A DNA stretch of 40,367 bases, taken from contig JAAUSY010000016.1 in assembly GCA_012032475.1 (NCBI GenBank), positions 1-40,367 on the forward strand, written 5' to 3'. This document shows, in pieces, positions 1,577 to 15,171 of the stretch. The notes under the pieces are model-generated. The model searched no databases. It had not been told where the DNA came from and worked only from the letters and a program-made list of their open reading frames with translations. The translations under genes were made by a program, and so were the position numbers. Source of the DNA: Chloroflexaceae bacterium (GTDB lineage: Bacteria; Chloroflexota; Chloroflexia; Chloroflexales; Chloroflexaceae). The stretch's first letter is position 1; each line of letters begins with the position of its first letter.

Positions 1577-3664
1577 TTACTCATCCTGATCATACCATAC
1601 CTGATGATGAACGGCAAAGATGGTGCTGCCATCCTGGTCCGTATAGACCTGCTCGTAGCGCAGGGGGTCATCAAACAGCGCCGGTGAAAGCGGGTGGGAG
1701 TCCGGGCCGAGGTAAATATGGGTTATCCGCTCATCCTCAATCAACCGGTGAATATCCTGTTCCTGCCCTTCTTGAAACGATGCCACCACCCCGCTCACCC
1801 GCCGCACCTCGCGTACGTAGTCTGGCGGGCCATAGGTAAACACGGCCGGTGGTGTGGTCGTCCAGCGTCCGGTCAGTGGCAGCAACCAGTATCCCCCATC
1901 GGTGCCGCGGTCGGTGTCGCCGGGATACCACGGAACCGCATTGATGAGGAACCGTGCGTCGGGGGGGGTGTGTTCGGCAACCCACGCCATCGCCGCCGTG
2001 TCGGCAGGCGTTGCCAGCACCGTGACGGGATTGATCACGTCGCGCAGGTCCTTCGCGCCCCAGAGGGCAAACGCCGCCAGGAGTACCCCGAAGCCACCCC
2101 GCGCCAGCACCCTCCAGAACGGTGGAGATGGTGGAGATGCTGGAACCGTGCGCTTCAGCCAGGCCAACCACGCTTGCGCCCCTCCGCCAATTAGCACACT
2201 TAGTGGAATGAACAGGCAGACCACCATGATATCGTTGGTCATAATCCAGGAATGAGGCACCGGAATCAGCCATGGATTGATGAGCAGCAAGGCCAACCCC
2301 CCAGGGGCAACCCCGAAGCGCCGCTGCGGAACTGACCAGAGCACCAGCAGCCCACCTGCCACCGGCAGAATATACCCGACCATCCACGGATTTGCCAGAA
2401 CCACCATCCCGCTCACCCACCCGGCCAGACCTACGGCGGCCTTTGCGCGGTGCCACGTCCCCCAGAGGAGCGCCACCAGCGCCAGCGATATCAGCAGCAG
2501 GTTCTTCTGGGGTTCCCAGAGCAACCCGGCATGGAGCTGGACATAGTCGCCTCCGCTCACCAGTGCGTGGGGGTTCTCAACGGCGGGGAGCAGAATCTTG
2601 AGGCTGAGCACCCACAACCAGGGAGCCGCAAGCACCAGCGCCCCCCCCACCAGCCACGTTGCCTGCCAGAGCCGCGAACGCACGAGTGCCCACGAGGTGT
2701 CGAGCGCCCAGGTTCCCCCCATCACCGCGAGCAAGCACCCGGCCAGCACCAGCACCAGTGCATGAATGATGCTCAGGCCGGCCAGCAGCAGCGCTGTTGC
2801 CAGTAACCACCCCCGCGAGGCGGTGCGGAGCCAGAGATGCCAGGAGATTGCCAGAGGGGGCAGCACCAGCAGCCCCGTCAGGAGCGTGTAGCGCCCCCAA
2901 CTCACGTAGTAGGAAGGCATAATAGAGACAAGGCCGACGACGATGCCCGCCACCACCCCGGCCAGCGGACGCCGCCACAGGCAGGTCGCCAGAGACGCAC
3001 AGGTGAGCACATGCAGCGCATTGAGCACCTGCCCTTCCCACAGCATCACCCTGGGGAGTTCCAGGCCAGAAAGGTGCATCACCGCCGCAGTGAAGACATG
3101 GTAACCCCAGTGGTAGGACAGGTGGTCCACCGGAAGGTAAGGGCGCAGCGAATAGGGAGCCTGCCCCTGCTCTGCCGCCACGCGGATGATCAGCGCATGG
3201 TGGACTGAATCAACCCAGGCGGGCAGCACCAGGTCGCGAATCTGAACCAGGCGCACCCCAAGCGACAGGAGAAAAACCAGCAGCAGCGGCAGCCACGTTT
3301 TCCCGATAGTCCGGGCATCGGCTATGCGGAGGGACCGGGTGTGCCCCGGCTGCCAGGCCGCACCCACCACGCCCACTGCGCACGAGAGCGCCAGCCCGTG
3401 CAAGACCGCGGAAGAGAGCACCAACCCCACCACGGTGGCCCATTCGTACAGCAGCGCAACGCTGCACAGGCTCAGGCCAAGCCAGAGCGACGGGCGCAGG
3501 AACGGAACCGCAGGAAACTTCAGCCTCAGCACGCGGTCAAGGAGATAGCCCGGCCCGAACAACAGCAGCGGTAGGACCACCAGCAAGCGTCCGGTCGGGC
3601 CAGCGACCCAGGCAACGATGAGGCACGGCAGCAATGTGATGAATAACTTTCGAAACCAGGTCAT
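1577..3664 (-). CDS. polytopic membrane protein, GT-C glycosyltransferase-like
   Basis: 695 aa from ATG 3664. An in-frame start at 3850 is possible, but its first 62 residues are low-complexity and cross an intergenic repeat. The N-terminus (MTWFRKLFITLLPCLIVAW) opens into about a dozen hydrophobic helices spread over the first 550 residues. A loop after the early helices carries the acidic/His signature WVDSVHHALI followed by HLSYHWGYHVF, which resembles the catalytic first loop of GT-C (lipid-linked sugar) transferases. A soluble C-terminal domain of about 140 residues follows (WVAEHTPPDARFLIN, then ITHIYLGPDSHPLSP). The probable role is transfer of a sugar from a polyprenyl-phosphate donor on the outer face of the membrane; this is inferred from architecture only. 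It stands alone, divergent from the fur operon and separated from the Kelch regulator by 116 nt. Confidence 0.7.
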   Translation of the reverse strand: MTWFRKLFITLLPCLIVAWVAGPTGRLLVVLPLLLFGPGYLLDRVLRLKFPAVPFLRPSLWLGLSLCSVALLYEWATVVGLVLSSAVLHGLALSCAVGVVGAAWQPGHTRSLRIADARTIGKTWLPLLLVFLLSLGVRLVQIRDLVLPAWVDSVHHALIIRVAAEQGQAPYSLRPYLPVDHLSYHWGYHVFTAAVMHLSGLELPRVMLWEGQVLNALHVLTCASLATCLWRRPLAGVVAGIVVGLVSIMPSYYVSWGRYTLLTGLLVLPPLAISWHLWLRTASRGWLLATALLLAGLSIIHALVLVLAGCLLAVMGGTWALDTSWALVRSRLWQATWLVGGALVLAAPWLWVLSLKILLPAVENPHALVSGGDYVQLHAGLLWEPQKNLLLISLALVALLWGTWHRAKAAVGLAGWVSGMVVLANPWMVGYILPVAGGLLVLWSVPQRRFGVAPGGLALLLINPWLIPVPHSWIMTNDIMVVCLFIPLSVLIGGGAQAWLAWLKRTVPASPPSPPFWRVLARGGFGVLLAAFALWGAKDLRDVINPVTVLATPADTAAMAWVAEHTPPDARFLINAVPWYPGDTDRGTDGGYWLLPLTGRWTTTPPAVFTYGPPDYVREVRRVSGVVASFQEGQEQDIHRLIEDERITHIYLGPDSHPLSPALFDDPLRYEQVYTDQDGSTIFAVHHQVWYDQDE

Positions 3665-3671
3665 ATCTGTA

Positions 3672-3716
3672 CCACAATGATGAGAGATGAGAGATGAGTG
3701 ATGAATGACAGTAGAG
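3672..3716. repeat. intergenic short tandem repeat (GATGAGA-type)
   Basis: An imperfect tandem array of 7-8 bp units of the GATGAGA type lies just upstream of the glycosyltransferase-like gene, so the leader of that gene would read as CTCATC-type pyrimidine-rich repeats. A similar CATC-rich stretch lies at 17690-17727. Function unknown. Confidence 0.6.
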
Positions 3717-3824
3717 TAGTCTATGGAAACCTTCCTGTCAAGCGGAGACCTGCCCCCACCTCCGCTCTCCACCCCACCCCGCAGCGCCACAACGGGCGCA
3801 ACCCATTCATGCACCACGCATTGG

Positions 3825-3853
3825 TTGACAGAACGCCGCTTATGCGGCATAAT
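3825..3853 (+). promoter_or_regulatory. fur-operon promoter with overlapping operator
   Basis: A perfect -35 TTGACA (3825-3830), a 17-nt spacer and a -10 CATAAT (3848-3853) are visible. A near-perfect palindrome, TTATGC-G-GCATAA (3840-3852), overlaps the spacer and the -10. Its position would block polymerase if bound, which fits autoregulation by the Fur-family protein encoded directly downstream. Transcription would start near 3860, which argues against the upstream ATG at 3859 as the fur start. Confidence 0.75.
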
Positions 3854-3897
3854 CGCTGTTGAAAAGGTTTTTCAGCGGGGGCAGGGATATCATCACT

Positions 3898-4335
3898 ATG
3901 GTCACTGAGACGGAGTGGGAACAGCGCTTTGCAGACGAAGGCTACCGCATGACCGCTCCCCGGCGGGCCATCATTGAGGTGCTGTCCCACACCACCACGC
4001 CGCTCTCGCCCCAGGAAGTCCTGGAACGGGCGCAAGCCATCCATCGGAACCTCGGTCTGGTCACGGTCTACCGGCTGCTCAACCTGCTCGTGGCGATGCG
4101 GTTGGTGCGCCGCGTCCATTTTGAACATGGCTGCCATGGCTACCTGCCGGCCTCGCCCGGCCACCACCATACCATTGTTTGCGAGAACTGCGGACAGGCC
4201 GCCGAATTTCCCGGCGACCGCGATATGGAGCAACTGACGGCCCGGGTTGAGCGGTGGACGGGCTACCACGTTCAGGACCACCTGCTCCAGTTCTATGGGA
4301 AATGCCCGGCCTGCTCGACCCGTGACGAGGAATGA
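3898..4335 (+). CDS. Fur-family metal-responsive repressor
   Basis: 145 aa. The N-terminal winged helix includes the MTAPRRAIIEVL helix and the LGLVTVYRLLNLLV recognition region. The C-terminal dimerisation domain carries the HHH cluster (89-91), the paired zinc cysteines C95/C98 (CENC) and C136/C139 (CPAC), and HxxxH-like ligands. Length and motifs are typical for Fur/Zur/PerR. ATG 3898 is preferred over ATG 3859 because the promoter -10 ends at 3853, so 3859 would fall at the transcript start. It is the first gene of an operon with a PCu(A)C lipoprotein and an ABC-3 importer, so it probably senses the imported metal (zinc, manganese or possibly copper). The metal cannot be read from the sequence, so no subfamily symbol is given. 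Confidence 0.9.
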   Translation: MVTETEWEQRFADEGYRMTAPRRAIIEVLSHTTTPLSPQEVLERAQAIHRNLGLVTVYRLLNLLVAMRLVRRVHFEHGCHGYLPASPGHHHTIVCENCGQAAEFPGDRDMEQLTARVERWTGYHVQDHLLQFYGKCPACSTRDEE

Positions 4336-4387
4336 GGGATGAGTTGCTCCGAAGCAGAACGATGCAGGAGGAGACGAGGAGGAATAG

Positions 4388-5146
4388 ATGATGAGGATGT
4401 CAGGGATGCGGGTGGGCCGGAGGGTGCTTGTGCTGGCACTCCTGGCGGCTCTGGTTGGAGCCATCGTTGCCTGTGAGGTATCACCAGAGACGACCGAGAC
4501 CACTGAATCCACAGCACCAGATGAAACGGTGCCCGGTGCTCCGCCTCTGGAGCCGGCCCCGGACCATCAACCACCACCTCGCGGTGGGAGCAACAGCGCC
4601 GCCTATATGACCCTGGTGAATGCCAGCGGGGTGCCCGACGCGCTCATTGGCGCGTCTACCGACGCCGCGGAAACGGTGGAACTCCACACCGTGGTCAATG
4701 AAGAAGGGGTCATGAAGATGCGCCCGGTGGGGCAAATCGCAATACCCGCTAGCGGTGAGCAGGAACTTCGGCCAGGTGGGTTTCATGTGATGCTGCTCAG
4801 CCTCACGCGGGACTTGCACGAGGGCGACACCGTCACGCTCACCCTGACACTGGAGCACGCCGGGTCGCTGACGATTGCCGCCCCGGTGCGGATGATGACG
4901 ATGGCTCCCCACCCCCAGGACGGGCCGGGTGAGGCGCAGACGACCATAACCGCCGGGGCTATCACCGTGCGAGACCCCTGGGTGCGGGCAGCGCTCATAA
5001 CCCCGATGCAACCGATGGAGCCGATGGAGTCAATCGAACCGATGCCGCCGATGCAGCCGATGGAGCCGATGGAGTCAATCGAACCGATGCCGCCAACGCA
5101 GCCAACGCAACCAGGGGAATCAGGGCAGCCGGAGACGGTCCGTTGA
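4388..5146 (+). CDS. PCu(A)C-type copper-binding lipoprotein with Met-rich tail
   Basis: 252 aa. A strong GAGGAGG site (4376-4382) lies 5 nt before ATG 4388. The signal peptide ends in a lipobox with Cys29 (IVAC), so the mature protein is lipid-anchored. A Thr/Pro-rich linker leads to a PCu(A)C domain (about 66-168). Its ligands H100, M109/M111, H133 and M135 fit the family consensus H-X10-M-X21-H-X-M exactly. Known relatives deliver Cu(I) to cytochrome oxidase or store it in the periplasm. Two oddities stand out. The first beta-strand of the family, usually N-terminal, appears at the C-terminus (ITVRDPWVRAA, about 192-202). A tail of two 15-residue Met/Pro/Glu repeats follows it. The gene occupies the slot normally held by the solute-binding protein of a Zn/Mn importer, and its stop codon overlaps the ATPase start. 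Confidence 0.85.
   Translation: MMRMSGMRVGRRVLVLALLAALVGAIVACEVSPETTETTESTAPDETVPGAPPLEPAPDHQPPPRGGSNSAAYMTLVNASGVPDALIGASTDAAETVELHTVVNEEGVMKMRPVGQIAIPASGEQELRPGGFHVMLLSLTRDLHEGDTVTLTLTLEHAGSLTIAAPVRMMTMAPHPQDGPGEAQTTITAGAITVRDPWVRAALITPMQPMEPMESIEPMPPMQPMEPMESIEPMPPTQPTQPGESGQPETVR
5006..5095 (+). repeat. two 45-bp in-frame tandem repeats in the lipoprotein tail
   Basis: Unit 1 (5006-5050) and unit 2 (5051-5095) both encode MQPMEPMESIEPMPP and differ at only two bases. Each repeat adds four Met, so the tail could bind soft metals. Confidence 0.95.
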
Positions 5147-5958
5147 ACCAGTATTTTTCATCCCTCTTTGCGCCCGGCGTGTCCCACCGCGAAGGGGCAT
5201 CCGTCCTAGAGGTGAGCAACCTTACGGTTATCTATGGGGGCAAAACCGCGCTCGAAGGCGTCTCCTTTCATCTGGCTCAGGGCGAACGTATGGCCGTGGT
5301 CGGGCCGAACGGGGCCGGCAAGAGCACGCTGCTCAAGGTCATTGCCGGGCTTCTGCCGCCCTCGTCGGGTGAGGTGAAGGTCTATGGACATGCACCGGGG
5401 GGGCATATCTGCATTGCCTATGTGCCGCAGCGCAGCCAGGTAGACTGGAGCTTCCCGGTCAGCGTCTCCGATGTGGTCATGATGGGGCGGACCCGCAAAA
5501 TCGGCCTGTTTCGCTGGCCGCGCCGAAAGGACCGCGAACACGTGCGCCAGTGTCTCGACCTGGTCGGGATGAGTGACCTGGCCGGGCAGCAAATCGGTGA
5601 ACTCTCTGGCGGGCAGCAGCAGCGCGTCTTCATTGCCCAGGCACTGGCACAAGAAGCCCATCTCATCCTCATGGACGAACCACTGACGGGGTTGGATGTC
5701 CCGGCCCAGGAGGACCTGTTCCGCATCCTGGACGAATTGCGCCAGCACCGCGTGACCATGATGATTTCGACCCACGACCTGAACCAGGCGAGCGGGCGGT
5801 TTGACCGCGTGATGTTGCTCAACCGCCGGTTGCTCAGCCTTGGCGCGGCCCGCGAAGCGCTGACGCTGGAAAACCTGGCAACGGCCTATGGGAGCCACCT
5901 GCCGTTCCTGGTTCCGGGTAACGGAATCGTCCCCCACCCTCCCCCCAGACCTCTATGA
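5143..5958 (+). CDS. metal ABC transporter ATP-binding protein (ZnuC/MntA-like)
   Basis: 271 aa from TTG 5143, overlapping the lipoprotein stop (TTGA), which suggests translational coupling. No ATG start precedes the conserved start VLEVSNLTV, so TTG is the best choice although the first 20 residues are weakly conserved. Walker A is GPNGAGKST (about 54-62), the Q-loop region is AYVPQRSQVDWSFPV, the ABC signature is LSGGQQQR, Walker B is LILMDEP, and the H-loop is STHDL. The QRSQVDWSFPVSVSDVVMMG segment is typical of ATPases that pair with ABC-3 family permeases for Zn, Mn or Fe. The partner permease is the next gene. Confidence 0.9.
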   Translation: MNQYFSSLFAPGVSHREGASVLEVSNLTVIYGGKTALEGVSFHLAQGERMAVVGPNGAGKSTLLKVIAGLLPPSSGEVKVYGHAPGGHICIAYVPQRSQVDWSFPVSVSDVVMMGRTRKIGLFRWPRRKDREHVRQCLDLVGMSDLAGQQIGELSGGQQQRVFIAQALAQEAHLILMDEPLTGLDVPAQEDLFRILDELRQHRVTMMISTHDLNQASGRFDRVMLLNRRLLSLGAAREALTLENLATAYGSHLPFLVPGNGIVPHPPPRPL

Positions 5959-5983
5959 ATATGAACATGATGCGGCAAGAGCG

Positions 5984-6850
5984 ATGAACCTGGTGCCCCT
6001 CTTTTCCGAACCGCTGCACTACGCCTTCATGGTGCGCGGGATGATGGCCGCGGCGATGGTCGGGGTGGTGTGTGCAGTGGTAGGCAGCTACGTGATGCTG
6101 CGGGGGATGGCGTTTTTTGGCGATGCCCTGGCGCATGCCATCCTGCCCGGTGTCGCGCTTGGCTACCTGGTGAGTGGGGGGGCGCGGGGAGACGTCTTCT
6201 GGTGGGCATTGGGAACGGCGATGGTCGCCTCCGTGGTCATCGGGGCGGTGAGCCAGGGGTCCCAGGTCAGAGAGGATACCGCGATCAGCATTGTCTTTGC
6301 GGCCATGTTTGCCCTGGGTATCGGGATGATTTCAACCATGCGTGGCTACGCGGTAGACCTGGCGCACTTTCTCTTTGGCAACGTGCTTGGCGTGACGACC
6401 AGTGACCTCTGGCACATGGCGCTGCTGGGTGGGTTGGTGCTGCTGGTGACCCTTGCGCTCTACAAGGAATTTCTGGTGCTCTCCTTCGACCCGGTGCTGG
6501 CCGCCACGCTGCGCCTGCCCGTGACCCTGCTGAACTACGTGCTGCTCATTCTGATAGCGATCACCATTGTGGTTTCGCTCCAGACGGTGGGCATTGCGCT
6601 CACGCTGGCGATGCTGATTACCCCGGCGGCCACGGCTTCGCTGCTCACCCGGCGGCTACCGGTGATGATGTTCCTGGGCGCTGCGGTCGGGGCGTTCTCC
6701 GGGGTTACCGGGCTATATCTCTCCTACTACCTGAATGTGGCGTCCGGGCCGTCCATTGTGCTGGTCTGCACGGTGGGGTTTGTGGCGGCGTTGCTGGTTG
6801 CCCCGCGGCGCGGGTGGGTGTGGAAGCGGTTGCGGCTCAGGAAAGGGTGA
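5984..6850 (+). CDS. metal ABC transporter permease, ABC-3 family (ZnuB/MntB-like)
   Basis: 288 aa from ATG 5984. An upstream in-frame ATG at 5888 lies inside the ATPase gene and would add an uncharacteristic Pro-rich stretch. About eight to nine membrane helices are visible. Family features are the early GSYVMLRGMAFFGDALAHAILPGVALGY segment (given in pieces: VMLRGMAFFGDAL, then HAILPGVALGYL) and LQTVGIALTLAMLITPAATA near the end. With the upstream ATPase it forms an importer of a transition metal. No cluster A-I (ZnuA/MntC) binding protein is encoded nearby. The histidine kinase starts 9 nt downstream, so it is probably in the same transcript. Confidence 0.9.
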   Translation: MNLVPLFSEPLHYAFMVRGMMAAAMVGVVCAVVGSYVMLRGMAFFGDALAHAILPGVALGYLVSGGARGDVFWWALGTAMVASVVIGAVSQGSQVREDTAISIVFAAMFALGIGMISTMRGYAVDLAHFLFGNVLGVTTSDLWHMALLGGLVLLVTLALYKEFLVLSFDPVLAATLRLPVTLLNYVLLILIAITIVVSLQTVGIALTLAMLITPAATASLLTRRLPVMMFLGAAVGAFSGVTGLYLSYYLNVASGPSIVLVCTVGFVAALLVAPRRGWVWKRLRLRKG

Positions 6851-10707: not shown

Positions 10708-13700
10708 TTAGCGCCGGGCCTTCTTCCGTCGCTTCTTCGGGGCGGTCTCGCCGTCGGTTGGATTGGGCGCGGGTGGCGGGCTGGCTGGCGGCGCGGTTCG
10801 TCCCCGCGCCACCGGCGGCTGATGGGTGGGTTTCCCGCGTGGTGCCCCGGCTCCATTCCCACTTCCACTGCTGACAGCCACAACCGCCTCGTCCTGATCG
10901 TCCTGGTCTTCGTCGTCATGGCTGCGCCCTCGCTGCACCTGTTTTCTGGTTTCGGGGGTGCTCCGACCGTGGCAATACTTGTATTTCTTGCCGCTCCCGC
11001 ACGGGCAGGGGTCGTTCGGGCCGACTTTGGGCATCTCGCGGCGGATGGTGTGCCCGGTGGGCTTGCGCTGGTCATTTGCCCGCTTCGTGCTCACCAGTTC
11101 GTAGCCAGAGCGGGCGGCCTGTTCACGCAAGGCCATCTCCCGCCGGTATTGCTCTACGTAGTTCCAGAATTCGGGGAGTTGCTGGAAGAACTTGCGCACC
11201 ACCGTCTGGTCAATGCTGGTCAGCAGTTCGTTGAACATGCGGTAGCCCTGGGTCTGATATTGGACCAGGGGGTCGCGCTGTCCGATAGCCTGTAACCCGA
11301 TACCCTGGCGCAGGTGTTCCATCGCGGTCAGATATTCCTGCCATTCGCGGTCTATCGTCTGGAGCATCAGCGAGCGCTGGAACTGGTTCAACTGCTCGTC
11401 GCCAATGGCCCTGCGCCACTGGTTGAAGGTCTGGCTCAGCACTTCAGCGAGCATGGCGCGGATGGCGTCCGGGTCGAGTTGGTCCAGCACATCGCCCACC
11501 AGCGCCATTCCGTAGCTCAAGATGGAACTGATGATGGTGTTTCGTTCGTTGGCCGATAGGTTGGACGACGCGGCTGAGGAAGCTGGACCGGAGACGGGTT
11601 GTAGTTCCTGGTAGAGCGTCGTGATGGCGTCTTGCTGGATAGCCTGTTGTTCTTCTTCTGCCAACTCCGCGGTGATGTGCCGCAGCCTTTCGCGGTAGAG
11701 GGCGATATAGTGTTCGCGCTGGTGTTCCCGCTCGGTCTGGGGCTGGTTGGGGCGCAGGACTTCGTGGGGGAGCGGCAGGATAGGCAGCAGCGAGAAGAGT
11801 TCCCGCGTGAGCAGGTCAATATGGTGCCCGGCTTCGCGGTTGGGGGGGATGTATGCCTCCAGGGCGCGCTGGAGCCGGTCCGACGACAACCCCGCCAGGC
11901 GGGCAAGGTCGGAGTTGTGGTCGGGTCCCTCGTCGTGGTCGTTGTCGGGGTCCGGGTCCGGGGTCCGGGGTTGGATTTCGGGCAGGATGGTTTGCAGGCG
12001 GCGCTGAACCAGGGAGAGGTTGACTTCGTCGGTGGCCGGGTTGGTGGCCTCGGCGATGGCTTCGCTGATTTGCCCCTGGAGCCACGTTTCGTAGCCAGTC
12101 AGGTATTGTTCCAGGAGGCGGTCTATCTCTTTGCCAAACAGCTCTTTGATGCGGTCTTCCAGGTCGCCACCGCGCTGCTCGCGCCAGAGTTCGTGGATAT
12201 ATTGCCGGGCCTCGTCGTAGTCGGCCTGGCTCAGGGTTGCTTCGGCGTCGTCGGGCATATCCAGCACATCGCACAGTTCATCTACGAAGACCGGAATGGC
12301 GTGGTGCTGCTGGTCTTTGATGAGCGGCAGCAGCAGCGTGGGAAGTTCCTGGTCGCCGGCATCTCGCAGCCGGGCGATGTCAAACGATACATCGGGGAGC
12401 AGCCGCGCTACGCGCCCCCGCACCACCTCCTCGTCCAGCGCGGCGGTGGCGTGCAGTTCGTCGCGGATTTCGGAGAACAGGACGTCGGGGTGAAAGTAGC
12501 GGGCCAGCAGTTCTTCGATGCGGTGCTGGTCTCTGGCTTCTTCGAGGATGCGGCGGCGGCGGGTGTAGATCACCTCGCGCTGCCGGTTCATCACGTCGTC
12601 GTATTCGACGGTGTGCTTGCGGATATCGAAGTTGTAGCCTTCGACGCGGGTCTGGGCCCCTTCGATGCTCTTGCTGATGAGCCGATGCTCGATGGCGATA
12701 TCGTCTTCGACCCCAAGCCGTTCCATCACGCCGCGGATGGCATCCATCCGGCCAAACCGTTTCATCAGTTCGTCTTCCAGCGAGAGGTAGAAACGGGACG
12801 AGCCGGGGTCGCCCTGCCGTCCGGAGCGCCCCCGGAGCTGGTTGTCTATGCGGCGGGCTTCGTGGCGTTCGGTGCCGATGACGTGGAGACCACCGGCGGT
12901 TTTAATCCGCTCGTGGTTTTCGCGGCACTCGCGCTGGATACGGGCGATGTCGTCCAGGTAGTCGAGCTTCAGGCCGGGCGTGTCCCGAACGAGGGTGTGG
13001 GATTCGTCCATCTCCCCGTGCAGCACCAGTTGCACCAGCCGGGCGCGGGCGGTGTAGATGCGGTCGAAGAGCTTGCCCGCCAGGAAGTTGGGGCGGTCGC
13101 GGCGGTGTTCGCGGTAGACCTTGCAGTCGGTGCGCAGGTGTTGTATTTCGACGATGTTTTCCTCACTCAGTTCGTCGTAGTCGCGCACGATGCGGCGAGC
13201 GCGGGTCAGGTTGCCCTGCAAGACCGACCGCACCAGTTCGCGCTTCTGTTCGTAGAGCACCTGGGGCACGTGAGACAGAACGGTGTTGACGAGGAAGAGG
13301 TGTTCTCCTTCCTGCTCAATCTGTTCGATGGCCTGTTCGTACCAGGCGTGCAGGCGGTTCAGTTCGTCCACGAGGTCGCTGGTAAGCATCCCGCGGCTGC
13401 GCTCAATGAGCGTCTGGGGGGGCATCTTCTGGGTTTTGTGTTCTCCGAAGAGGCTCTGGGCCAGTTCTTCGATCTGTTTGCGGTCCACGCCGGTGTCGCG
13501 CAGGTGGCGGGCCGCCAGGGCTTCGGGGTTGCCGCCAAGCAGAATGTCCGTCCCACGACCGGCCATGTTGGTGGCAATAGTCACGGTGCCGGGCTGCCCC
13601 GCCTGGGCGATAATGGCGGCTTCGTCGGCGTTCTGCTTGGCGTTGAGGACGTGCAGTCGGACCTGGTCGCTCCGTATCAGGTCGCCCAGGTCGCGCCGGA

Positions 13701-15171
13701 TCATGGCACTGAGCCGTTCCGAGGTTTCGACGGCGGTTGTGCCCACGAGAATGGGCTGCCCCTGCAAGGCTCGACTGCGGAGTTCGCCGGTCACCGCGTG
13801 GAACTTGGCGTCTTCCGTGCGGTAAATCTGGTCGGTCATGTCTTCGCGGATGCAGGGCTTGTTGGTGGGGATGACGGTCACTTCGAGGTTGTAGATTTTG
13901 GCAAACTCTTCGCTCTCGGTGGCGGCGGTTCCGGTCATCCCCGACAGCTTCTCATACATGCGGAAGTAGTTCTGGAAGGTGATGGTTGCATAGGTGACGG
14001 TCTCGCGCCGCACGCTGACGCCCTCTTTGGCCTCGACGGCCTGGTGCAGGCCATCGCTCCAGCGGCGGCCCGGCATCAGGCGTCCGGTGAATTCATCTAC
14101 GATGATGACTTCGCCATCCTGGATGACATAATCTTTGTCGCGGTGGTAGAGGAAGCGGGCTTTGAGCGCGTTTTCCAGGTAGTGGGTCAGTCCGCTGTGC
14201 TGCGGGTCGTAGACGCTTTCGCCGGGGCCAAGCTCTTCCAGTTGCGTTTCAACCTTCGCCAGTCCTTCTTCGGTGATGACGACGCTGCGGCTCTTCAAGT
14301 CTATCATGACGTCGCCATCGGGCTGGGACCCTTTCTTCACTTCGTCCGGGGTGACGCGCCCGGCCCGCAGGGGGCGCACGAGCTGGGCAAAGCGGGCATA
14401 TTCCGGGCTGGACTGGCTGGATGGCCCGCTGATGATCAGGGGGGTGCGAGCTTCGTCAATGAGGATGTTGTCTACTTCGTCCACGATGGCGAAGTGATGC
14501 CCGCGCTGGACCACCTGCTCGAAGCGGTGGACCATGTTGTCTCGCAGGTAGTCGAAGCCGAATTCGTTGTTGGTGCCGTAGGTGATATCGGCTTCGTAGG
14601 CTTCGCGGCGGGTGCAGGGCCGCCAATGCACCAGGCGTTCGTCATCGAGCGAGGTGGAGGGATCCACGAAGTCGGGGTCGAACAGGGCGGAGAAGTCGTG
14701 CCCGACAAAGCCCACACTCATGCCCAGGAGGTGGTAGATCGGCCCCATCCAGCCGGCGTCGCGGCGGGCGAGGTAGTCGTTCACGGTGACCAGGTGGGTC
14801 CCTTCGCCCTCCAGAGCGTTCAGGTAGAGGGGCAGGGTCGCTACGAGGGTTTTGCCCTCGCCGGTTTTCATCTCGGCAATGCGGCCCTGGTGGAGCACCA
14901 TCCCGCCTATCAACTGGACATCGTAGTGGCGCATGCCGACGGTGCGCCACGATGCCTCGCGCACGGTGGCGAAGGCTTCGGGCAGCAGGTCGTCCAGCGT
15001 TTCGCCCTCGCTCAGGCGCTGGCGAAAGGCGCTCGTCTTTTCGCGCAGGTCGGCGTCGGAAAGCTGCTGGTAGTCTGGCCCCAGGGCATTGACCCGGTCA
15101 ACCAGCGGTTGGTATCGCTGCCGGACCTTCTTTTCGTTCTCGCCAAACAGTTTTTTCAGCCAGTGTAGCAT
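10708..15171 (-). CDS. secA: preprotein translocase ATPase SecA, extended form
   Basis: 1487 aa, against about 840-1000 in most bacteria. SecA drives Sec-dependent export by ATP hydrolysis at the SecYEG channel. Visible features are Walker A MKTGEGKT (101-108), the DEVD box (231-234), [19 protein letters not shown] (360-378), [10 protein letters not shown] (534-543), and the [20 protein letters not shown] block (765-784). A roughly 200-residue helical insert (about 551-755) separates [10 protein letters not shown] from [13 protein letters not shown]. The scaffold/wing region after [10 protein letters not shown] (about 857-866) is also expanded by several hundred residues. The zinc motif [14 protein letters not shown] (about 1389-1402) is not terminal; an acidic, then Pro-rich, then basic tail (ending KKRRKKARR) adds 85 residues. 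No frame disruption is seen. Confidence 0.97.

Follow-up and report, generated by a model that had tools for sequence, protein, structure and literature searches.

A Fur-family regulator gene of a Chloroflexaceae bacterium probably controls its own predicted zinc-uptake operon through a Zur-type box adjoining the promoter

The promoter of a Fur-family gene in the window (the whole 40,367-nucleotide stretch of Chloroflexaceae DNA analysed here, located on contig C68 of the 4.6-Mb genome G000) is overlapped by one inverted repeat and followed by another, which raises the question of where the regulator binds and which metal it senses. The analysis argues strongly for the promoter of an autoregulated zinc-uptake operon (zur-PCuAC-znuC-znuB), at which Zur is predicted to bind TGAAAAGGTTTTTCA (Table 1). 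The promoter, the box, conservation, gene content and a second locus with boxes were all obtained by computation and are described below.

Table 1. Positions of the features discussed, as coordinates of the window
Feature	Position	Strand	Basis
-35 element TTGACA, promoter of the predicted zur operon	3825-3830	+	Exact letters; TTGACN in 32/35 box-bearing orthologue upstream regions
-10 element CATAAT	3848-3853	+	Exact letters; equally spaced CATACT in L021, an orthologue at 61% identity
Inverted repeat TTATGC-G-GCATAA	3840-3852	+	Present, not conserved, probably chance
Predicted Zur operator TGAAAAGGTTTTTCA	3860-3874	+	7-1-7, 6 of 7 pairs; 0 mismatches to TGAAAANNNTTTTCA
Fur-family regulator, predicted Zur, 145 aa	3898-4335	+	PF01475, E 1.5e-23; alignment A1
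PCu(A)C copper-chaperone domain lipoprotein	4388-5146	+	PF04314, E 1.9e-34; occupies the znuA slot of orthologues
ABC transporter ATPase, ZnuC/MntA-like, start codon uncertain	5143-5958	+	PF00005, E 6.4e-30
ABC-3 family metal permease, ZnuB-like, start codon uncertain	5888-6850	+	PF00950, E 1.6e-74

A preliminary description of the locus had placed a near-consensus TTGACA-17 nt-CATAAT promoter at 3825-3853, ahead of the Fur-family gene, and both statements were borne out: the letters are exact, the promoter is conserved in orthologues, and the PF01475 gene that follows has its likely ATG at 3898. The two elements, with their 17-nt spacer, match the consensus at 11 of 12 positions and represent the sole sigma-70-like match within 2500-5500, where 0.4 would be expected from shuffles. 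Both the form of a sigma-70 promoter (TTGACA-16/18-TATAAT) and its conservation were thus found in the window, and sequence comparison among orthologues indicates that this promoter is real, beyond chance.

For the comparison, orthologues were gathered by protein alone and the box was sought within 180 bases upstream. The resulting set of 36 comprises the window, L021, L072-L076 and 29 further loci, the best that alignment A1 retrieved from 400 genomes of the phylum (a limit of 30 loci put the E cut at 1.4e-42). Loci L072-L076 came from named genomes, in a search that yielded nine loci; L077-L080 (three from Rubrivivax and one from Bacillota, at 28-38% identity) were excluded. The 29 phylum loci fall into ten families, and because 13 of them share a single family (f16), the 36 rows are not independent.

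The predicted operator begins 6 nt past the -10 element. Its pattern, TGAAAANNNTTTTCA, was detected without mismatch upstream of 17 of the 36 orthologues, with at most one mismatch in 34 and with at most two in 35, compared with means of 0.04 (at most one mismatch) and 0.78 (at most two) in mononucleotide shuffles; at the latter threshold, L136 is the sole orthologue without a box in the 180 bases upstream. The majority form among orthologues is approximately ATTGAAAATGATTTTCAAT, and L021 retains TTGAAAGTATTTTTCAG, matching TTGAAAAGGTTTTTCAG at window positions 3859-3875. TTGACN is present in 32 of the 35 box-bearing orthologues (exceptions L076, L108 and L130), and in 32 of 35 the start of the box is offset by -1 to +13 nt relative to the end of the -10 element, counts to be read with the fact that promoters were sought only within 40 bases of the box, a restriction that favours a box-near-promoter outcome; in the other three (L073, L074 and L108) the box lies inside the promoter spacer. 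Since the usual distance from the -10 element puts the transcript start near 3860, the predicted operator would span about +1 to +15. In some relatives a second, similar palindrome was observed just past zur and before the next gene (L021, 1452-1466; L073, 6430-6444; also G379:C60:11244 and G199:C1:427936), which may be a second operator; no such palindrome is present at this place in the window.

The preliminary description had also considered a lineage-specific site. The operator at 3860-3874 is, on the contrary, a known kind of site, being close to the 7-1-7 repeat TGAAAATGATTTTCA published as bound by Streptomyces coelicolor Zur (PMC2823685, in excerpt). Zur/FurB of Corynebacterium glutamicum and Mycobacterium tuberculosis recognise a related 10-1-10 repeat (same source, in excerpt), and the window box is without most of the matching flanks of that 10-1-10 consensus.

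The genes behind the promoter were compared with those of the orthologous loci, among which L108-L136 extend only about 1.5 kb past the regulator. A ZnuA-type gene was identified in 34 of 35 loci (the ZnuA match of L132 is not adjacent to the regulator), an ABC ATPase gene in 33 of 35 and a PCu(A)C gene in none of the 35. The linkage to znuABC that is characteristic of Zur was therefore observed across these loci, and in the window through the ATPase and the permease. As the usual order is zur-znuA-znuC-znuB (L072-L076), the genome of the window has PCu(A)C in the slot of znuA, and znuA elsewhere. This substitution is the only unusual feature of an otherwise ordinary system, and a PCuAC gene joined to a Zur operon was not encountered in the titles and abstract beginnings listed by a literature search. 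When the translation was read against what we take to be the PCu(A)C copper motif, H-x10-M-x21-H-x-M, the motif was complete; the C-terminus of this lipoprotein (4388-5146) carries a Met/Pro-rich repeat, MQPMEPMESIEPMPP. Further along the window, on the minus strand (10708-15171), lies a SecA-like reading frame of 1487 aa, which exceeds the usual length of SecA.

In its own genome, the perfect box was found at three places, compared with none for the reversed control: window 3860-3874, C190:6698 and C190:6746. Both C190 boxes precede a ZnuA-type lipoprotein gene (PF01297, first 98 positions, E 4.6e-29) inside which the contig ends, and TTGACA-17-TATCCT was seen by eye upstream of it. Boxes thus stand before zur and, as a pair, before the organism's own ZnuA gene, as expected of a Zur regulon with its zinc-import genes. 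In this C190 gene (L156, 2199-3065), a repeat-rich stretch separates a signal peptide and a mature part that do not share a frame, reflecting either an assembly error or a true lesion. The box was not found upstream of the three other Fur paralogues of the genome (best 4-5 mismatches), nor were other zinc-regulon markers found under a box, for example a gene for a zinc-free ribosomal protein. Seven near-matches in the genome were viewed; six are in open frames, one of these, on C224, being at a likely start codon. The seventh, TGAAACCGTTTTTCA (G000:C13:18127-18141), lies directly after a TATAAT-like element, close to the end of its contig, and overlaps a start codon; it is possibly a further target, or possibly chance.

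In relatives that for the most part have no close orthologue, perfect Zur-type boxes were also detected, in 23 of 100 genomes; with the present genome counted in, 37 forward places compare with 19 for the control. Of 22 such loci viewed in relatives (L085-L106), 12 are inside frames of at least 150 aa and none was seen, by eye from translations, to have a metal-transport gene beside it. They were accordingly taken as chance and not as regulon sites.

The protein encoded by the first gene clearly belongs to the Fur superfamily (PF01475, 83.6 bits against a cut-off of 23.1). It did not reach the NCBIfam Zur equivalog NF008646 (30.1 bits, cut-off 167), which we take to be an E. coli-type Zur model, so that this result says little for other phyla; every NCBIfam Fur and PerR equivalog model was likewise under its cut-off. 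A structural zinc site of two CxxC pairs (C95, C98, C136 and C139) is retained in all 36 orthologues. Putative regulatory-site residues are H91 (36/36), H89 (35/36) and C79 (31/36), in columns that differ from those of FurB. H74 is kept in 33/36, and the three paralogues of the same genome have R, K and D in the C79 column. Alignment with M. tuberculosis FurB (2o03) places the Cys of YRRCSEHHHHH at A85, not at C79, and because the Cys/His candidates miss the FurB columns, the residues do not prove zinc. Site B of E. coli Zur consists of H77, C88, H96 and E111, and of the B-site residues it is the Cys that shows the highest conservation across Zur proteins (PMC4219657, in excerpt). C88 of E. 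coli Zur lies 15 residues before C103, and C79 of the present regulator 16 before C95; a Zur-like Cys/His site in a somewhat shifted place is plausible. The system would be classed as Zur on the strength of its box, its target genes and the family of the regulator, with a predicted role for zinc.

Part of this evidence bears on a different metal. With the operator at 3860-3874 correct, the regulator could sense manganese (Mur/MntR-like) and the ABC system import it, a possible though quite unlikely reading suggested by the best NCBIfam match of the ATPase, MntA (246.5 bits, cut-off 400); AztA was the other leading hit, and both were under cut-off. The permease, however, is nearest to the zinc permease AztB, also under cut-off, and the regulator gene is trailed by ZnuA-type genes. 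His-rich HEHEHEHE stretches, which are typical of zinc-binding ZnuA, occur both in the organism's own ZnuA and in L072. C. glutamicum Zur shifts DNA with Mn too in vitro, but the box equals the actinobacterial Zur boxes (both PMC2823685, in excerpt).

A different site, in turn, was proposed in the preliminary description, in which TTATGC-G-GCATAA over the -10 element serves the regulator as a lineage-specific autoregulatory operator. The letters were given correctly, the repeat (3840-3852) is a perfect 6-1-6 that extends to 8 of 9 pairs, and its location fits a repressor. Palindromes of this size are nonetheless at chance level: perfect 6-1-6 palindromes number 13 in the window, where first-order Markov sequences give 14.0 (range 6-22), and those pairing at 8 of 9 positions or more number five, compared with 7.0. 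Of the 29-mers in the window, 3.2% contain an inverted repeat with arms of at least six, as do 736 of 20000 spacer shuffles (3.7%). Across the whole genome, TTATGCNGCATAA with at most two mismatches has 66 forward places and 67 in the reversed control; a one-mismatch copy lies at C4:999. Conservation upstream of Chloroflexota orthologues, the absence of which had been named beforehand as counting against the proposal, was not observed: with at most two mismatches the repeat is present in one of 36 upstream regions, that of the window itself, and with at most three in four, compared with 3.06 in shuffles. The nearest orthologue found (L021 in G007, 61% identity) keeps TTGACA-17-CATACT and is devoid of TTATGC/GCATAA, and the repeat is absent upstream of the three Fur paralogues (best 5-6 mismatches). 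The repeat was therefore rejected as operator; such binding is very unlikely, and the overlap with the promoter is probably due to chance. What stands of the proposal is autoregulation, as the Fur-family gene is very probably controlled through a conserved palindrome at its own promoter, with TGAAAAGGTTTTTCA as the site in place of the one first indicated. This corrects the site to be tested, since a gel shift on TTATGC-G-GCATAA would probably probe the wrong bases. Hardly credible is the reading of TGAAAAGGTTTTTCAG, an inverted repeat in the inferred 5' leader, as an RNA hairpin (attenuator) and not a protein-binding site, given that it is short and A/T-rich and that in three of 35 orthologues the box is in the promoter spacer, upstream of that promoter's transcript.

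Under the favoured zinc-uptake reading, RNA polymerase would use the TTGACA-17-CATAAT promoter, and a zinc-loaded dimer of the Zur encoded by the first gene would bind TGAAAAGGTTTTTCA at 3860-3874. Adjoining the -10 element and covering the inferred transcription start, Zur on the box would block initiation. A drop in zinc would release Zur and switch on the importer genes, as well as the separately encoded ZnuA lipoprotein behind its two box copies. Binding by the regulator, zinc as the metal and repression itself are predictions drawn from sequence. Zur boxes frequently overlap the promoter, repressing through a block of RNA polymerase (PMC6103462, in excerpt).

A more far-reaching reading, which we regard as doubtful, is that of a Chloroflexota Zur subfamily with a moved sensing site (C79-x9-H89-x-H91) and, in this lineage, with PCu(A)C under zinc control in place of znuA. 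The candidate Cys lies six columns before that of FurB. If this were true, PCu(A)C under Zur would link zinc starvation to copper delivery, with znuA elsewhere behind two boxes. More generally, the actinobacterial-type Zur box is extended here over a wide set of Chloroflexota regulators, so that a ready motif is provided for zinc-regulon prediction in this phylum. RegPrecise 3.0 includes a Chloroflexi collection of five genomes, and its Zur entries extend over more than 25 taxonomic groups (PMC3840689, in excerpt), so that Zur of Chloroflexi may already be catalogued there; a literature search for Anaerolineae and zinc uptake regulator returned nothing.

Among known systems, E. coli Zur/znuABC shares the logic of a zinc-uptake repressor and has a site B with a conserved Cys (PMC4219657, in excerpt), for which C79 is a candidate counterpart, but its box differs, sequence similarity is weak (4mtd, E 5.4e-5) and EcZur occupies znuABC as two dimers (PMC6103462, in excerpt). 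Fur and PerR belong to the same Pfam family, and the top structure matches by sequence are the Fur proteins 6d57 and 4ets; unlike in Fur/PerR, the genes that follow the box are zinc-type ABC importers and the equivalog models were missed. The closest likeness is to Streptomyces Zur, also a Fur-family protein, with the box TGAAAATGATTTTCA compared with TGAAAAGGTTTTTCA here and with znuACB targets (PMC2823685, in excerpt). Two boxes ahead of znuA are known in S. coelicolor, just as two precede the organism's own znuA-type gene (PMC6103462, in excerpt), and listed sites of M. paratuberculosis resemble the present box (PMC4298942, in excerpt). The system differs from M. tuberculosis FurB in the columns of its putative ligands, and from actinobacterial Zur in its Chloroflexota host, in a box mostly just past the -10 element, in a regulator encoded at the head of the operon under its own predicted control and, in the window only, in PCuAC occupying the slot of znuA.
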